Below, in pieces: positions 12,678 through 19,044 of a stretch of DNA of 21,287 nucleotides. A program made the position numbers and the translations under genes. Source of the DNA: a virus; IMG/VR virus record IMGVR_UViG_3300021142_000215, positions 1 to 21,287 of that record; one strand, 5' to 3'. Numbering within the stretch: position 1 is the stretch's first letter; each line of letters starts with the position of its first letter. The notes under the pieces are model-generated. The model did not search any database. It saw only the letters and a program-made list of their open reading frames with translations, and was not told the origin of the DNA.

Positions 12678-13018
12678 ACTGGCACACTCGGATCATTTCT
12701 ATAGCAAGTGAAAGTTACATTCATGCGATCATTTGTTTCAAAACAATCCTGAATTCTCCAATCAAAACCTCGCCAATAAATACTATAAAGATTCTGATTA
12801 TTTACTATTTCTCTTGTATTTGGAGTGTAATTAAGCACCAATTTAACTAAATCAGTATAAAAGCGAGTGTCTGAAGTTACATTCAGATTGTTATGAACAT
12901 CCATAACTCTCGCTCTAGTATCAAACCACTTTGTGATAGTTGTGTTTTGCTGACCAAAATCATCAGTTGAATTGGTTACTCGATTAACAGTTATATTCTC
13001 ATAGCGAGCAATTGCCAT
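12674..13018 (-). CDS. Head-tail adaptor / head closure protein
   Basis: The product has 114 residues. It has the pattern of the phage head-tail joining family: an opening ENITVNRVTNSTDDFGQQNT (with the typical D-D-x-G), a central RARVMDV strand, then FYTDLVKLVLNYTP, IYWRGFDWRIQDC and the closing NVTFTCYRND. Members form the ring that seals the filled head under the connector. The start codon shares one base with the stop of the homing endonuclease (TAATG). In the usual order it would directly follow the gp6/gp8-like connector, so the endonuclease has come in between the two. Confidence 0.85.
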   Translation of the reverse strand: MAIARYENITVNRVTNSTDDFGQQNTTITKWFDTRARVMDVHNNLNVTSDTRFYTDLVKLVLNYTPNTREIVNNQNLYSIYWRGFDWRIQDCFETNDRMNVTFTCYRNDPSVPV

Positions 13019-13557
13019 TACATCACTCTTTCTAATTTAAATTCAATCCATTTCCCTTTGGATGGATTATTATTCAGTAAATAATTAATACTTCCAATAG
13101 GAATTCCAGTTGCTTTACTAGCTTCTTGCCAACTAGAATATATAACATTATTAATTTTTATAGCTTTTTTATGTGCAATTGAATTTTTTAATTTAGATTC
13201 AGCACTTTTAGGGATTCCACGAACATAAGCCATAGTTTTTTCTATAGCTTCTTTTGTATGCTTTCTACCTTTAAAAGACAAACCACCTAAAGCAGAATTA
13301 CCATCTCCACCTTCTGATTGATTTACTAATTTATATCCCATATCTTTAAAACATGAAATAAGGAATTTTTCATGGGCAAATGCTTCATTTGAAGTAAGCC
13401 ATTCAGCTAATTTTATACTTTTATATCCATGTTTTTTAACAGTATTATGCCAATGTTTATTTCTTGCATCTTTTTTAAACAATCGCATCCCAGAACCTTT
13501 ACCAATATAAAAGATTTTATTTGTATCAAGAGTAATATGTGCGTATGTATAAAACAT
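13018..13557 (-). CDS. GIY-YIG homing endonuclease with NUMOD motifs
   Basis: The product has 179 residues. The catalytic domain opens MFYTYAHITLDTNKIFYIGK, a form common in phage GIY-YIG enzymes in which YTYAHI stands for GIY and FYIG (16-19) for YIG. Candidate catalytic residues are Y5, Y17, R25, H35/H37 and E63 (EKFLI), followed by LVNQSEGGDG. Residues about 97-110 (GRKHTKEAIEKTM) resemble NUMOD3, and 132-162 (INNVIYSSWQEASKATGI) resemble NUMOD1, the DNA-binding helix-turn-helix segments of such enzymes. It is more AT-rich than its neighbours and has no obvious ribosome binding site, so it depends on coupling. It is a free-standing selfish gene between connector and adaptor, not part of the virion. 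Confidence 0.9.
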   Translation of the reverse strand: MFYTYAHITLDTNKIFYIGKGSGMRLFKKDARNKHWHNTVKKHGYKSIKLAEWLTSNEAFAHEKFLISCFKDMGYKLVNQSEGGDGNSALGGLSFKGRKHTKEAIEKTMAYVRGIPKSAESKLKNSIAHKKAIKINNVIYSSWQEASKATGIPIGSINYLLNNNPSKGKWIEFKLERVM

Positions 13558-13560
13558 AAT

Positions 13561-14229
13561 TTACATGATTAAGGGCTTGTATGGTCGCAAAAGAACATCA
13601 ACACCCCAAGGAATCTGATTCAATCCACCTTGTAAGGTATCGCTACGATTGTTATACAAATGAGTTAAAAGCAATAATCCAGCTTGTTTAATGACTGGAT
13701 AGCGAGCTAATGGACTTGCTCCTGTTGTGTATTGAACCACAATAGGATTAGTCATCACCTGATTAATCTCATTAGGAATGCCATTGCATACTACTTTGTT
13801 TCCAGTTGGATCATAGTAATAAGAAGTTTTATCTAATAAAGTAAATACTGGTGGAGTTGAAGAAGTCCAATATCCTACTGAATTAATAACAGTCCCTAAT
13901 TGCCCTTGGTTATCCTGAGATACTTCTGGCAAGTCTAAGCACACTTGTGTGCCTGTCATACCATTAAAAGCCCCATAGTAGACTTTATAGCTGATTGGGA
14001 ATATTGACATACCTAGATAGTCCTCAATCGCCATACGAGTGGCAACCTCAAGCCCTGATAGGTAACTATCTTGGCTTTGGTCATCGAATAAGTTTAGCTG
14101 TTGAGTAATCTCATCAAGAGTAAGCCAAGCTGTTTGAGTATCTCGGCTTACTTGCTCAACTTTTTCATAGCTAAATGGGTTTCTAGCAGTACCTAGAAAT
14201 GGTCCATTTGTTAGACTATCTAATGGCAT
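13561..14229 (-). CDS. Head-tail connector (gp6 / phiE125 gp8-like)
   Basis: The product has 222 residues. LTLDEITQQLNLFDDQSQDS (about 37-56) followed by a helix LSGLEVATRMAIEDYLG is the hallmark of this connector family. A beta-rich middle (YYYDPTGNKVVCNGIPNE) and a final helix YPVIKQAGLLLLTHLYNNR complete the pattern of the longer phiE125 gp8 type. Members form the ring below the portal. The gene has an AAGGA ribosome binding site overlapping the second capsid gene's stop. It ends ATG TAA, only three bases before the endonuclease start. Confidence 0.87.
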   Translation of the reverse strand: MPLDSLTNGPFLGTARNPFSYEKVEQVSRDTQTAWLTLDEITQQLNLFDDQSQDSYLSGLEVATRMAIEDYLGMSIFPISYKVYYGAFNGMTGTQVCLDLPEVSQDNQGQLGTVINSVGYWTSSTPPVFTLLDKTSYYYDPTGNKVVCNGIPNEINQVMTNPIVVQYTTGASPLARYPVIKQAGLLLLTHLYNNRSDTLQGGLNQIPWGVDVLLRPYKPLIM

Positions 14230-14238
14230 GGGTTATCC

Positions 14239-15276
14239 TTAACCGACTAAACGAACACCAGCGAAAACATCTCTAATTGTAGAAACAGTACGCTTTTCAC
14301 AGAACAAGTTAATGAAACCTGGTTGATACTGATCTAAACGCTTAATGCTCATTTCTTCATTGTCTGCAATAGTAACAAATCTCTGCCATGCAGCTAAATA
14401 AACAGGATAGTTGCCAGAACCAGCTACTTGCATATATGGGTTAGGTATTACTGGATGTCCAAAGATATTACCAATTGAGTAACCATCTTTATCGCCAATT
14501 TCCAAGAATAATGGCAATCCACCAGTATCTTTTAACTCACGCAATTGCAAAATAGTTGATGGATGCATCATCCAAGCAGTTGATGGGTCATTCCAGTATT
14601 GTGATGGCAATGCTGAAGCTAAAGAAACTAAATCATTGTAAGCAATGCTTGTTGGTGAATCCTGTTGAACCTGATACATAGTATGTCTACCATTTGTATC
14701 GGCAGAACCGCTAGTACCAAATGATGCTGCACTTGTAGAACCTGTGTAGTAATTTAAACCACGCAAGCCATATACTCCACCAGTTTGAACTGTAGTAGAA
14801 CCAGAAGAATCATCATTCAACATCATTGAAAGACCTTCTTGCTGTGCAAATTCTAAGGCAATATCGCCAACAATTGCACCATCAAGATTATTGATGTCAT
14901 CCATAACTGCGGTACGAATAGGTACTACAGCATTAATAGATTTAACTGAAATTTGCCAAAATGAAGTGGCAATATTTGGTACACCAGAGTTATTGTTGAT
15001 TCCATAGCCCCAAGGGTTTACAGAACCATTTTGAATATTTGTGGCATTACCGATTTTAGCGACAAACGCTTCATCAGAGCCAGTTGTTTTTATTACTCGG
15101 CTTAGACCCCTAATTGGGTTAGCCATACGCAATGCAGCGAATGCATCATCATAAATTACACGACCACCAACACCTGAACCAGAACCAGTTAGTGCTGATG
15201 CTTCATTTAAATTTACTTTAGCTTCGCCTTCTTTTAAGGCTGATTTAACTGCTTCTAGGATTAGATTTTGGCTCAT
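14239..15276 (-). CDS. Second HK97-fold capsid protein, lacking the N-terminal delta domain
   Basis: The start is ATG 15276 with TTGGA seven bases upstream; the in-frame TTG at 15288 lies inside that site. This gives 345 residues. It is clearly homologous to the protein encoded at 15331-16671: ALTGSGSGVGGR, NPIRG, PIRTAVMDDI, EFAQQEGLSMM, GLRGLN, WQRFVTIAD and DQYQPGF all have counterparts in the same order. It begins about 80 residues later than its paralogue and keeps only a short helix (LILEAVKSALKEGEAK) before the capsid core. Thus it lacks the coiled-coil delta scaffold. A terminator-like hairpin separates the two. It could form pentons, be a minor shell subunit, or be a partly redundant duplicate. 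The capsid fold is nearly certain; its role is open. Confidence 0.88.
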   Translation of the reverse strand: MSQNLILEAVKSALKEGEAKVNLNEASALTGSGSGVGGRVIYDDAFAALRMANPIRGLSRVIKTTGSDEAFVAKIGNATNIQNGSVNPWGYGINNNSGVPNIATSFWQISVKSINAVVPIRTAVMDDINNLDGAIVGDIALEFAQQEGLSMMLNDDSSGSTTVQTGGVYGLRGLNYYTGSTSAASFGTSGSADTNGRHTMYQVQQDSPTSIAYNDLVSLASALPSQYWNDPSTAWMMHPSTILQLRELKDTGGLPLFLEIGDKDGYSIGNIFGHPVIPNPYMQVAGSGNYPVYLAAWQRFVTIADNEEMSIKRLDQYQPGFINLFCEKRTVSTIRDVFAGVRLVG

Positions 15277-15291
15277 TTTTAATTCCAATTA

Positions 15292-15329
15292 ATGAAAGAA
15301 AAGGTGGGGGCTTTTGACCCCCGACCTTT
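15292..15329 (-). terminator. Intrinsic terminator or processing hairpin between the two capsid genes
   Basis: On the minus strand AAAGGTCGGGGG is followed by the loop TCAAAAG, then CCCCCACCTTT and a T-rich run TCTTTC. This is an eleven-pair, GC-rich stem with one bulged C and a T-tract on the correct side for minus-strand transcription. It begins right after the tandem stop (TAATAA) of the first capsid gene and ends before the ribosome binding site of the second. It could cut downstream expression or protect the 3' end of the major capsid message. Confidence 0.82.
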
Positions 15330-15330
15330 A

Positions 15331-16671
15331 TTACGCTTTAGTTGCTGTATCAGTAGAGCGATAGCGGATAATACTGAAAGGGTCCTGGACGCTGGTTGCT
15401 AGACGCTTTTCTCCAAAAAATGTAATAAATCCTGGGAGTGTCTGGTCATATCTGCGAAGAACCATATTCAAGCGGTCCACAATTGTGAAACCACGCTGCC
15501 AATCACCAAAGTACATTGGATACAAGCTATCTGTACCTGCTGAAGCAGAATAGATTGCTGGAACATCCAAATACTTATTAACTACAACATCAAAGCCTAA
15601 CAAGCGACCTACGATGCCATCAGTTTCCAATGGAGCCATACGCTCAAAGATTGGTGTGCCATTTTGGTCTACTAAACCACGAATAGCTGCCAACATCAAT
15701 GGATTAACTACAAAGCGAGCTGTAGGTGTCCAGTATTCTTGTGGTAACAAGTAAACAAAGTTTACGATGTCATCAAAAGTTACATGGTTTGTTGTTGCAT
15801 TGCCGTTAGTTGTGATCTGGTCATAAGTAGCGATTGAATGTAAACCGCTTGTAGAACCAGTACCGCTAGAACCGAAAGCTGCTGTAGAAATAGTACCGCC
15901 AGCATAAACGCTGTTAGCACCAGGATATTGATTCAAGCCACGCAAGCCATTAGAACCACCATAAGGCAATGTAGTTGCACCTTGGTCATTGTTCTGAATC
16001 ATGGACAAGCCTTCTTGTTGGCTAAATTCCATCAACATATCATCAACCACATTGGCTTCTAAACCATCAATGTCATCCAAAGCTGCTGTACGGATTGGGA
16101 ACTGCACATTCAAGTCTTGCAAAGTTAATTGCCAGATTGTTGTATCTTCAGTTGTTTGTGCTCCGTTGTTTTGGATTGCATATCCCCATGCTGCACCAGC
16201 ATTACCAGTTTTAGCTCTGAATTGATATGTTGCCCCTTCTGTAGAAACAGTACGAGCCACACCACGCATTGGGTTAATCAAGCGAAGTTTATGGAATACT
16301 GGGTCATAGGCTGTACGACCACCCACACCAGCACCGCCACCAGTCAATGCTGATGATTCAGACATATAAGCTGCATATTGTCCTTCATCTTCAAACATTT
16401 TAAGCTCACGCTCCATTGAACCGCCCTTTTTGTAAAACTTTTTGAGCTGTTCACGAACTGATTTGTTTACATCTTCTTTGATAGACTTAGAAGTATGAAT
16501 GATTGATGGAGCAGACATTTCAGAAATGCGAGCTTCTAAAGTAGCTAACTTTTCTGACAAAGGTACTACTGCTTCTTCAACTTTTGCAACTGCTGCTGCT
16601 TTAGCTTCTTCTACTTTAGCCAATGTTTGGGCTTCGATAGAATCTAGCTTTTCAATAATCTTTTCAGACAT
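15331..16671 (-). CDS. HK97-fold major capsid protein with N-terminal delta domain
   Basis: The product has 446 residues. Residues 1-55 are Ala/Glu/Lys-rich heptad helix (IEKLDSIEAQTLAKVEEAKA), the delta or scaffold domain normally removed by the prohead protease. A charged linker runs to about 103. The core starts at SESSALTGGGAGVGGR (104-119) and includes NPMRG (133-137), PIRTAALDDI (192-201), EFSQQEGLSM (215-224), GLRGLN (242-247) and YDQTLPGF (408-415). It directly follows the protease gene with an AAGGA ribosome binding site overlapping the protease stop. This is the usual protease-capsid pair of HK97-like phages. The strong RBS and full domain set make it the likely main shell protein. 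Cleavage near 85-105 is inferred, not seen. Confidence 0.95.
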   Translation of the reverse strand: MSEKIIEKLDSIEAQTLAKVEEAKAAAVAKVEEAVVPLSEKLATLEARISEMSAPSIIHTSKSIKEDVNKSVREQLKKFYKKGGSMERELKMFEDEGQYAAYMSESSALTGGGAGVGGRTAYDPVFHKLRLINPMRGVARTVSTEGATYQFRAKTGNAGAAWGYAIQNNGAQTTEDTTIWQLTLQDLNVQFPIRTAALDDIDGLEANVVDDMLMEFSQQEGLSMIQNNDQGATTLPYGGSNGLRGLNQYPGANSVYAGGTISTAAFGSSGTGSTSGLHSIATYDQITTNGNATTNHVTFDDIVNFVYLLPQEYWTPTARFVVNPLMLAAIRGLVDQNGTPIFERMAPLETDGIVGRLLGFDVVVNKYLDVPAIYSASAGTDSLYPMYFGDWQRGFTIVDRLNMVLRRYDQTLPGFITFFGEKRLATSVQDPFSIIRYRSTDTATKA

Positions 16672-16681
16672 TTTAGATTCC

Positions 16682-17467
16682 TTATTTAATACGATTAGAT
16701 AATGCTTTCAACAATTCTCTTTCCTCTAGGGCTTTAAGAACTGCATCGGCTTCTTCCACCGCAACAGTTTCACTCTGTATAGGTGTTTCTTCAAGTTTCT
16801 TAGGGGCATCACGCTTTTCTAATACTTGCTTGAAAATACTAGCTGCGGTGGTCGCAACTTTTTTAGATAATCCAGCTTCACGCAAGACTTTCTCTAAATT
16901 TCTTGGGTTGATATGTCCTTCAGCATCAAAACATTCCAACTGCATAACTTCTGCTGCTGGGTTATTTGGATACATAACAACAGAAAGCTCTCTCAAACCG
17001 CCTTTAGTGATTTGGAAATAGGCTTCATCATTATCATCTTCTGCATCATTGCCATCAGCATCAACCATTTTGGCTTCATCAGCATAAGCACCAACTGATA
17101 CACCACCAAATAGATTTGGAGATTCTTTTAACACATTGTAGACATCAGAGCCACCTACTGTATTAAGGAATAGACGACCTTCAGCGGTCATACCGCTTGC
17201 ATCAAAATTAAATTCTGTCCATTCACCAACAGGCATACCCATATCATTATGGTTTAAGAACATTGGCAAAGGTTTACCAGCTTTGGCAAACTCATTAGCC
17301 CATTCTGCAAAGCCTTCTGGTTGGTAATTGAATCTTCTACCATCCAAGCCTTCTCTAGCACCCCAAGTGGTTGCTCTAGCTGAGATTTTTCCGCTTGGGC
17401 TTTGTTGGTCTTTCGACTGCTTTTCTAGGCTTAGTTTTGCTTCGCAAACTAGAGTTAGATTCTTCAT
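16682..17467 (-). CDS. Prohead maturation protease (HK97 gp4 / S78 family)
   Basis: The product has 261 residues. The conserved domain begins at about residue 25 (SGKISARATTWG). The candidate catalytic His is H73 in MFLNHNDMGMPVG, and the candidate Ser is S124 in LFGGVSVGAYAD. LRELSVVMYPNNPAAEV (158-174) is the typical closing motif of the family. A Glu-rich C-terminal helix (182-261) probably acts as a scaffold-like tail. An in-frame TAA just upstream fixes the start at 17467, preceded by GGGG as a modest ribosome binding site. The first 31 codons overlap a small ORF in another frame. The enzyme trims capsid delta domains and itself during head maturation. Confidence 0.92.
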   Translation of the reverse strand: MKNLTLVCEAKLSLEKQSKDQQSPSGKISARATTWGAREGLDGRRFNYQPEGFAEWANEFAKAGKPLPMFLNHNDMGMPVGEWTEFNFDASGMTAEGRLFLNTVGGSDVYNVLKESPNLFGGVSVGAYADEAKMVDADGNDAEDDNDEAYFQITKGGLRELSVVMYPNNPAAEVMQLECFDAEGHINPRNLEKVLREAGLSKKVATTAASIFKQVLEKRDAPKKLEETPIQSETVAVEEADAVLKALEERELLKALSNRIK

Positions 17468-17600
17468 TAATTACCCCATTATTAATAGCTTGATTATTAT
17501 CTTTTATCTTATTTGGGGTTTTATCTTTTAAAGGAAGTTTAACATCATTTTGTTTAACTTGCTTAGATAATACCTTAATTATCTTTTTAATTAAACTCAT
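17376..17600 (-). CDS. Small Lys-rich hypothetical protein overlapping the protease start
   Basis: The product has 74 residues beginning MSLIKKIIKVLSKQVKQNDV. It is strongly basic, rich in Lys and Asn, and mostly disordered. No domain is recognised. It starts one base after the portal stop, with AGGT upstream as a modest ribosome binding site. Without it there would be a 134-bp hole between portal and protease in a tightly packed operon, which favours a real gene. Its last 92 bases overlap the protease start in another frame, so chance cannot be excluded. A role is unknown; a packaging or scaffold accessory is only a guess from position. Confidence 0.5.
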   Translation of the reverse strand: MSLIKKIIKVLSKQVKQNDVKLPLKDKTPNKIKDNNQAINNGVINEESNSSLRSKTKPRKAVERPTKPKRKNLS

Positions 17601-17601
17601 C

Positions 17602-19044
17602 TTATTTACCTATATTCATTTTGCTCTTTTGATTACCGCCACCGCCACCAGTATCAGTTGGTGAACTTCCTGGTATTGGGTCAATTTTTGCAGTCTTAGC
17701 ACCTACAGGTACATTTGTTTGTGAAATCTTAGTGGCATCTGTGCCTAATAGCTCATCAGCACCTTCAATTTTACCAATATTCAAATATTCTCTAGCTTCA
17801 TTAGGTGTCATAATGCCAGAAGCAACTCCAGCAGTTACAAAGTTCATTTGGTCTAATGCTGCACCTTTTAAGAAATCCTTTGTATCAAATCGGATACTTA
17901 AATTTGGATAACCTTTAAGCAATTGCATTTTAAACTTTTGCTCAATATTGATAATCATTGGATACATAGTTGTTTTATAGAACTCATCCAATAATGTCTG
18001 TGTGTTGTTGTATTTGCCTTGTGAAAGACCAAGCATTTGTGGTGGTACACCAAATAATGCACAAATTCTATTAGTTGTTTGCTCTTTTAGCTTAGATGCT
18101 TCTGCATCTTGCAAAGTAAGCATATGGGTTGGTGTCCATGTCATACCTTGGTCTAGAAGAATAGACTGTCCAGGCTTGCTTTGATCTGTAGGCTTTGAAC
18201 CTGTCATGCTAGACCATGCTTCTTTTAAGCGAGCTGCAATTTCTTTGAACTTAGCATCAGGAATCACTTGTGTAGTGCTAAAGATACCAGATGGCTTTGC
18301 CCCATTTTGCATGATGTAGTTAGCATACAAATCAATATCTGTATCTAAAGCTACTAATTCAGTTGCCAAAATAGCTTTGTTGAAACCAGCAGAACCCTGC
18401 CAAGGTTGCTCTGTGCAATGAACTACTTGATGAGCTGCCAATGGTTCATCTTTATTGAAACCATAGGTAGGAGTAGACATTCTGTAAGTCGGATACCGCA
18501 TTGGGTTAATCTGGACTGTGATTAATGTCGCATCCAAGTTATACATCTCAATTGGGGTCTGATTAGGGTCTTTTTGATCTTTGCGATAAAGCAAAGTAAA
18601 TACCTCACCTGCCATCAGATACCACATAACCCATTGATACCAAAACTCATATTGATTCTGAAAGTTATTGGGTTCTTGCATTAAATTAAGAACTTGACGA
18701 GCTTTATTTTTATCCCTTGTACCAGCTTTATCAGATTGAAATACATCTTCAAAAGTGCCATCATCCATCTTGTACATAACTTTGACTGGCAATTGGCTTA
18801 ATGCTCTAGCGATAACACCAATACAGCTCATAATTGTAGAATTTCGGCTTAATACCGACATATCCACAATGCGACCAGCATTAGTAGTGCTTGAAGTAGT
18901 TACATATAGAAGTTGGAATGCAGAGCCTTGTTGTCCATTTTGATTAACTCGAACAACTTGGTTGCCTAATTGGGTCTGACCAAATAGGGTATTTGATTCA
19001 TTTTTTACCGATTTTTTGCCACCGAAAATATCTAAAATACCCAT
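17602..19044 (-). CDS. Portal protein (HK97 family)
   Basis: The product has 480 residues. It begins MGILDIFGGKKSVKNESNTL. STIMSCIGVIARALSQLPVK (about 68-87) is the N-terminal hallmark of HK97-type portals. WYQWVMWYLMAGEVFTLLYR (about 135-155) is the conserved helix. EQPWQGSAGFNKAILATELV matches the family's region before the wing. Residues about 320-360 (TTNRICALFGVPPQMLGLSQ) carry the ICxxFGVPPxxLG motif, the strongest identifier. The C-terminus is disordered and Gly-rich. Twelve copies form the channel at one vertex through which TerL pumps DNA. A GGAG ribosome binding site lies in the 29-bp spacer after the terminase gene. Confidence 0.95.
   Translation of the reverse strand: MGILDIFGGKKSVKNESNTLFGQTQLGNQVVRVNQNGQQGSAFQLLYVTTSSTTNAGRIVDMSVLSRNSTIMSCIGVIARALSQLPVKVMYKMDDGTFEDVFQSDKAGTRDKNKARQVLNLMQEPNNFQNQYEFWYQWVMWYLMAGEVFTLLYRKDQKDPNQTPIEMYNLDATLITVQINPMRYPTYRMSTPTYGFNKDEPLAAHQVVHCTEQPWQGSAGFNKAILATELVALDTDIDLYANYIMQNGAKPSGIFSTTQVIPDAKFKEIAARLKEAWSSMTGSKPTDQSKPGQSILLDQGMTWTPTHMLTLQDAEASKLKEQTTNRICALFGVPPQMLGLSQGKYNNTQTLLDEFYKTTMYPMIINIEQKFKMQLLKGYPNLSIRFDTKDFLKGAALDQMNFVTAGVASGIMTPNEAREYLNIGKIEGADELLGTDATKISQTNVPVGAKTAKIDPIPGSSPTDTGGGGGNQKSKMNIGK

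Follow-up and report, generated by a model that had tools for sequence, protein, structure and literature searches.

Tandem HK97-fold capsid paralogs with a scaffold-like N-terminus on one of the two are conserved in a group of small-genome siphophages and suggest a two-subunit shell

Here, we present an analysis of a capsid gene pair in a 21,287-nucleotide stretch of viral DNA (positions 1 to 21,287 of IMG/VR record IMGVR_UViG_3300021142_000215), which in its full length is referred to as the window. The window is a siphovirus head-and-tail module coded on the minus strand, in which genes for the small and large terminase, the portal, an S78-type prohead protease and the capsid protein MCP-A are followed by those for a second capsid protein, MCP-B, a head-tail adaptor, a GIY-YIG endonuclease and the tail (Table 1). 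Based on PHROG and Pfam, no scaffold-like gene was recognised from the portal to the adaptor. At 1-1611 on the minus strand, the window encodes a collagen-like protein that consists mainly of G-x-S-G repeats and matches tail-fibre families. Both capsid reading frames are intact. The conserved start of MCP-B is the ATG at 15276, which has a GGA ~8 nt on its 5' side and agrees with the start in relatives; the TTG at 15288, from which an ORF finder called the gene (15288-14239), is not the conserved start.

Table 1. Positions of the capsid genes, their parts and neighbouring features in the window
Feature	Coordinates	Strand	Basis
MCP-A (446 aa), major capsid protein with HK97 fold	15331..16671	-	Phage_capsid 116 bits; PHROG 10; fold Z 20.5 to RcGTA
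MCP-B (345 aa), HK97-fold paralog of MCP-A	14239..15276	-	38% identity to MCP-A; Phage_capsid 84 bits; fold Z 22.9 to RcGTA
MCP-A delta-like helical N-terminal region, residues 1-105, removal predicted	16357..16671	-	Low-confidence helices; ends at invariant E105
MCP-B short N-terminal propeptide (predicted), residues 1-25	15202..15276	-	Ends at invariant E25; helix 3-16
MCP-A/MCP-B intergenic hairpin, terminator-like, GC-rich, followed by a T-rich tail	15300..15329	-	-19.5 kcal/mol, z -3.65; 82/82 spacers
S78-type prohead protease	16682..17467	-	Pfam Peptidase_S78 37.2 bits (cut-off 21); PHROG head maturation protease
Portal protein	17602..19044	-	Pfam Phage_portal 213.6 bits
Head-tail adaptor	13561..14229	-	PHROG 442 and 40
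GIY-YIG homing endonuclease, after the adaptor gene	13018-13557	-	
74-aa ORF	17376-17600		No PHROG or Pfam match

A preliminary description of this DNA had proposed that the two products are tandem HK97-fold capsid paralogs, and our data support this. Using BLASTP, we found 140 identities over the 369 positions of the common core (38%, E = 3e-74), a likeness that is not due to chance, and all motifs named in that description are present in both proteins in identical order. Both proteins exceed the curated cut-off of Pfam Phage_capsid (PF05065; 24.2 bits) and match PHROG 'major head protein'. AlphaFold2 models, for which 66 MCP-B and 70 MCP-A sequences served as input, have a mean pLDDT of 72.9 for MCP-B and 64.8 for MCP-A; both models are uncertain at the N-arms and E-loops, as would be expected of parts that fold against neighbours. 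Among the best 50 fold matches, the first for both models is the RcGTA capsid (Z 22.9 and rmsd 5.7 over 262 residues for MCP-B; Z 20.5 and rmsd 3.7 over 256 residues for MCP-A), and the match to HK97 is clear too (Z 18.5 for MCP-B compared with prohead I). RcGTA was also first for each protein in profile searches of PDB sequences. With profile scores above the cut-off and Z values above 20 to RcGTA, both proteins belong to the HK97-fold phage capsid family, and each adopts this fold when modelled alone.

The N-termini of the two proteins are unlike each other. In MCP-A, a region of ~105 residues is modelled, at low confidence, with helices at 2-34, 41-51, 64-81 and 96-104, and its length and place are those of the HK97 delta domain. 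MCP-B has a single helix at 3-16. Accordingly, only MCP-A combines the features of an HK97-type delta domain, i.e., a fused scaffold, an adjoining protease and no separate scaffold gene, as anticipated by the earlier assignment of a scaffold-like region to the first gene only. The same account described the second product as a capsid core plus a short helix; the core was confirmed, while the helix is better read as part of a propeptide of ~25 residues. MCP-B also lacks three surface loops. Fixed differences between the two proteins are limited to five core positions, and such divergent (type II) sites are too few to place MCP-B in the lattice.

The pair is a constant feature of a large phage group. 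In one scan with MCP-A, at least 597 relatives were confirmed in IMG/VR. Loci were gathered with five seeds (MCP-B and MCP-A of the window, MCP-A of phage P19250A, a distant MCP-A and the portal), and the outcome for co-occurrence was identical when MCP-A or the portal, and not MCP-B alone, served as the seed. In 322 loci, the genes for MCP-A and MCP-B are adjacent and in constant order; some of these loci share one contig, and the independent genomes are therefore fewer than 322. At 90% nucleotide identity, the first set comprises 84 non-redundant pairs, and the full set contains 191 distinct sequences following MCP-A. A further 26 loci have MCP-A only, every one of which terminates at most 460 nt past this gene; the two longest already include the first codons of MCP-B. 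Thus, every sampled IMG/VR relative of MCP-A with sufficient downstream DNA has an adjoining MCP-B, and no relative without it was found among them. At least eight contigs that carry the pair measure 36-39 kb, based on which we estimate the genome size of the group at ~36-39 kb. Among 50,697 phage records, the pair is present only in Methylophilaceae phage P19250A (KX815270; 38.7 kb), in which genes 5 and 6 occupy the equivalent position and encode proteins 64% (MCP-A) and 54% (MCP-B) identical to those of the window; the further matches listed are single capsid genes with ~20-23% identity. P19250A is a cultured member of the group and the one isolate carrying the pair.

Three records at the margins of this sample deserve mention. 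In the 75,987-base contig IMGVR_UViG_3300022748_000017, the capsid module occurs twice, in different versions (L283 and L331, with 100% and 76% identity to the L127 query), and the contig probably represents two phages joined in assembly. One contig with the phage module (L215, JAHEYD010000010.1) was placed in a metagenome-assembled genome called Candidatus Nitrosotalea, an archaeon, most likely by a binning error. The marine OM43 phage Venkman has been described as syntenically similar to P19250A (PMC8163748); however, its head module (MT375522, L217) is a different one, with a separate scaffolding gene, a capsid gene of 981 nt and no MCP-A/MCP-B pair, and we rejected it as a relative.

A single split separates all 84 MCP-A from all 84 MCP-B sequences, and the identity between the two proteins is the same within genomes (39.8%) as between genomes (39.6%), arguing for one old duplication. 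The latter comparison also gives no sign of gene conversion between the two genes. The suggestion that the genes arose by duplication therefore holds, with separate clades that retain 38% identity in the window. Median dN/dS values, calculated from 847 non-independent pairs, are 0.185 for MCP-A and 0.191 for MCP-B, the top value for MCP-B being 0.47, and indicate that both proteins are under strong purifying selection; MCP-B changes faster (mean core identity 61%, compared with 73% for MCP-A). These data bear directly on the possibility that the second gene is a decaying duplicate without function. MCP-B is split in two of the 322 loci (L307 and L328); however, MCP-A is split as well (L304), at a similar rate that is compatible with sequencing errors, and all other frames are intact. 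Selection on MCP-B that is not relaxed, together with its presence in every sufficiently long relative, excludes decay as an explanation, and we give it almost no credence.

Co-variation between MCP-A and MCP-B is not informative about direct contact. The correlation of their distances (0.64) is no higher than that of neighbouring gene pairs, and the partial correlation given the portal is 0.34 versus 0.25-0.30 for other pairs. Among 121 non-redundant loci, the nearest relative by MCP-A and that by MCP-B agree in only 40% of the genomes, much as for other pairs of neighbouring genes, suggesting that reassortment inside the head module is frequent.

In both proteins, a hydrophobic-x-E-[A/S]-S site marks the start of the core; its E is invariant at the aligned position in 168 of 168 sequences (84 of each protein) and is the sole invariant residue among the first 31 of MCP-B. 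The site is placed where the RcGTA capsid chain becomes ordered, with residue 31 of MCP-B aligning with RcGTA residue 104. The T4 prohead protease has a consensus similar to A-x-E. In a giant phage, the prohead protease cleaves after A-x-E with a preference for S at P1' (PMC10052503), and residues 99-106 of the RcGTA capsid protein have been described as from the N-termini (PMC7296036). Based on this sequence pattern, hydrophobic-x-E-[A/S]-S is likely a prohead-protease site, and we presume that the S78-type protease cleaves both proteins. Cleavage at the invariant E would remove ~105 residues from MCP-A and ~25 from MCP-B and would leave equivalent mature N-arms on the two. In eight loci (L059, L061, L062, L064, L077, L078, L079 and L159), a domain of ~95 residues (phrog_2859) is fused before the predicted site of MCP-B; it is also found in Roseobacter phage CRP-811 and Synechococcus phage S-CBS1, whose 'major capsid protein' (~820 residues) begins with it. 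Such an extra domain is consistent with an N-terminus of MCP-B that is removable and interior. The short N-terminus with its predicted site would equally suit a protein that is active in the prohead only, as an assembly partner or decoy, and is removed so that it is absent from the virion. We consider this quite unlikely, as the entire HK97 core of MCP-B is under purifying selection and degradation sites are not evident in the protein.

The two genes are separated by a spacer with a median length of 56 nt. A GC-rich hairpin of 6 bp or more is present in all 82 non-redundant spacers and is represented by 76 distinct sequences; in 73 of the 82 spacers, a T-run of at least three residues lies close to the foot of the hairpin. 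In the window, this hairpin is the sole terminator-like site with five G-C pairs. Terminator-like sites are in slight excess in the window (17 found, 11.7 expected by chance); because this number barely exceeds the expectation, the case for the hairpin rests on its conservation. It also rests on the individual folds, since differences in loop length reduce the RNAalifold consensus to four pairs, two of which have changes on both sides. In Rfam, the hairpin had no match. The spacer is also a repeated landing site for homing endonuclease genes in relatives: a GIY-YIG gene lies directly after the hairpin in L075, L293 and L314, and an HNH gene lies between the capsid genes in L150 and L251, while L250 has an identical gap.

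Codon usage points in the same direction as the position of the hairpin. The fraction of codons ending in C is 0.47 for MCP-A and 0.31 for MCP-B, and the preference for such codons is higher in MCP-A in 96% of genomes. Together with the putative protease site, hairpin and codon bias lead us to predict that MCP-A is abundant and MCP-B minor, and these sequence features suggest that MCP-B is expressed at a lower level than MCP-A. Alternatively, the hairpin may protect the mRNA of MCP-A instead of lowering expression of MCP-B. We also considered reversed roles, in which MCP-B would be the abundant shell protein and the scaffolded MCP-A a minor or vertex component. MCP-B is the smaller protein and consists of the core only, and the cleavage site is common to both, as this arrangement would allow; however, the codon bias is stronger in MCP-A throughout nearly all genomes, and MCP-A precedes the hairpin and is the better conserved protein. 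These observations make reversed roles very improbable.

Based on the constant pairing, the long and short propeptides and the higher predicted expression of MCP-A, we favour a shell built of two paralogous subunits, in which MCP-A would form the hexons, carry the scaffold and be abundant, while MCP-B would be minor and most likely the penton subunit, with one protease cutting both. We assign this best-supported reading a probability of roughly 0.52. By analogy with T4 gp24 and its relation to gp23, MCP-B is probably a dedicated vertex subunit. According to this model, MCP-A with its fused delta-like scaffold would be made in large amounts, and transcription would meet the hairpin past its gene, yielding less of MCP-B and of the products downstream. 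Scaffold-less MCP-B would then join the prohead scaffolded by MCP-A, most likely as pentamers at the 11 non-portal vertices; if the head had T=7 geometry, it would hold ~55 copies of MCP-B and 360 of MCP-A. The S78 protease would cut MCP-A after E105 and MCP-B after E25, giving matching N-arms, and the head would mature. A separate penton protein is not a necessity, because HK97, P22, RcGTA and P1 form pentons and hexons from one gene.

Two other placements of MCP-B in the shell must be weighed against the vertices. As a minor subunit mixed into the hexons, or as a factor controlling the size or curvature of the head, MCP-B would fit its conservation, the hairpin and the codon bias equally well, and its lack of a scaffold could dilute the delta layer beneath a capsomer. 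However, we know of no HK97-fold phage that works in this way, and MCP-B without its three surface loops would have to fit into hexamers of MCP-A; we regard such a role as unlikely. A special ring of MCP-B at the portal or neck, i.e., at the twelfth vertex and not at the remaining ones, would agree with the position of its gene directly upstream of that for the head-tail adaptor and with the lower expression level expected of both. Gene order is weak evidence, however, and RcGTA accommodates its portal with ordinary capsid subunits (PMC7296036), which leaves the ring improbable.

Applied to the lineage as a whole, the penton reading leads to a broader proposal, which we advance tentatively and at somewhat less than even odds. 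In these phages of ~36-39 kb, two dedicated subunits would replace quasi-equivalence, with the scaffold on the hexon subunit only and a penton subunit that has the common protease site; the terminator would set their ratio, and those versions of MCP-B that have the extra N-terminal domain before the cut site could carry an internal protein to the vertices. Phages with genomes of ~40 kb, such as HK97 and P22, use one coat gene for pentons and hexons and thereby save genome space, and T4, with a much larger genome, is a rare exception to this rule, as summarised in a 2026 review (PMC13185644). Here, a large, widespread and mostly uncultured group of small tailed phages devotes a full kilobase to another capsid gene, which is retained in every sampled locus. 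Such a system would make hexon/penton specialisation, the one-sided need for a scaffold and the setting of subunit ratios testable, and our reading would assign a function to a gene that is annotated only as 'hypothetical protein' in P19250A and is also present in many environmental contigs. In the open-access literature, we found no report of a capsid pair of this type in a small phage and no description of the P19250A protein as a capsid paralog. Shells made from two HK97-fold genes are already known from T4 and two-component encapsulins; what is new is that the pair occurs throughout a group of small-genome siphophages, with a scaffold borne by just one of the paralogs and a conserved intergenic hairpin.

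Among the systems compared, the Methylophilaceae (LD28) phage P19250A has the equivalent pair in the equivalent place. HK97 shares with the window the order of portal, S78-type protease and capsid, the helical N-terminus of ~105 residues and the fold (gp4 and gp5); however, its hexons and pentons are the product of a single capsid gene instead of two. By profile and fold, the closest solved structure to both proteins is RcGTA Rcc01687 (PDB 6TB9 and 6TSU), which likewise derives from a single capsid gene and forms an oblate head derived from T=3 (PMC7296036). As judged from the titles of the structures, the two-component Family 2B encapsulin of Streptomyces lydicus (PDB 9BJE and 9BIX) is a shell of two HK97-fold proteins, but it is non-viral and works without a protease or portal. 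In its proposed function, the pair has a parallel in T4. The T4 proteins gp23 and gp24 are encoded by adjacent genes, and the propeptide is long in the major protein but short in the minor one. T4 heads contain 960 copies of gp23 and, at the vertices, 55 copies of its paralog gp24; each of the two is processed at the N-terminus (PMC5694885). The two systems share paralogous HK97-fold shell proteins that are conserved together and, as predicted for the pair described here, long and short propeptides that a prohead protease removes. T4, however, is a large myovirus whose scaffold core is separate and whose capsid proteins contain an insertion domain, whereas the phages described here have genomes of ~36-39 kb, a scaffold fused to MCP-A only and a proposed vertex location of MCP-B. 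The pair looks like the product of a duplication independent of that in T4. In a PDB profile search with the MCP-B alignment, the capsids of RcGTA and EcCI2 were retrieved and gp24 was not. We suggest that the pair resembles the T4 arrangement in its working, with the likeness of MCP-B to gp24 being a proposed functional analogy.
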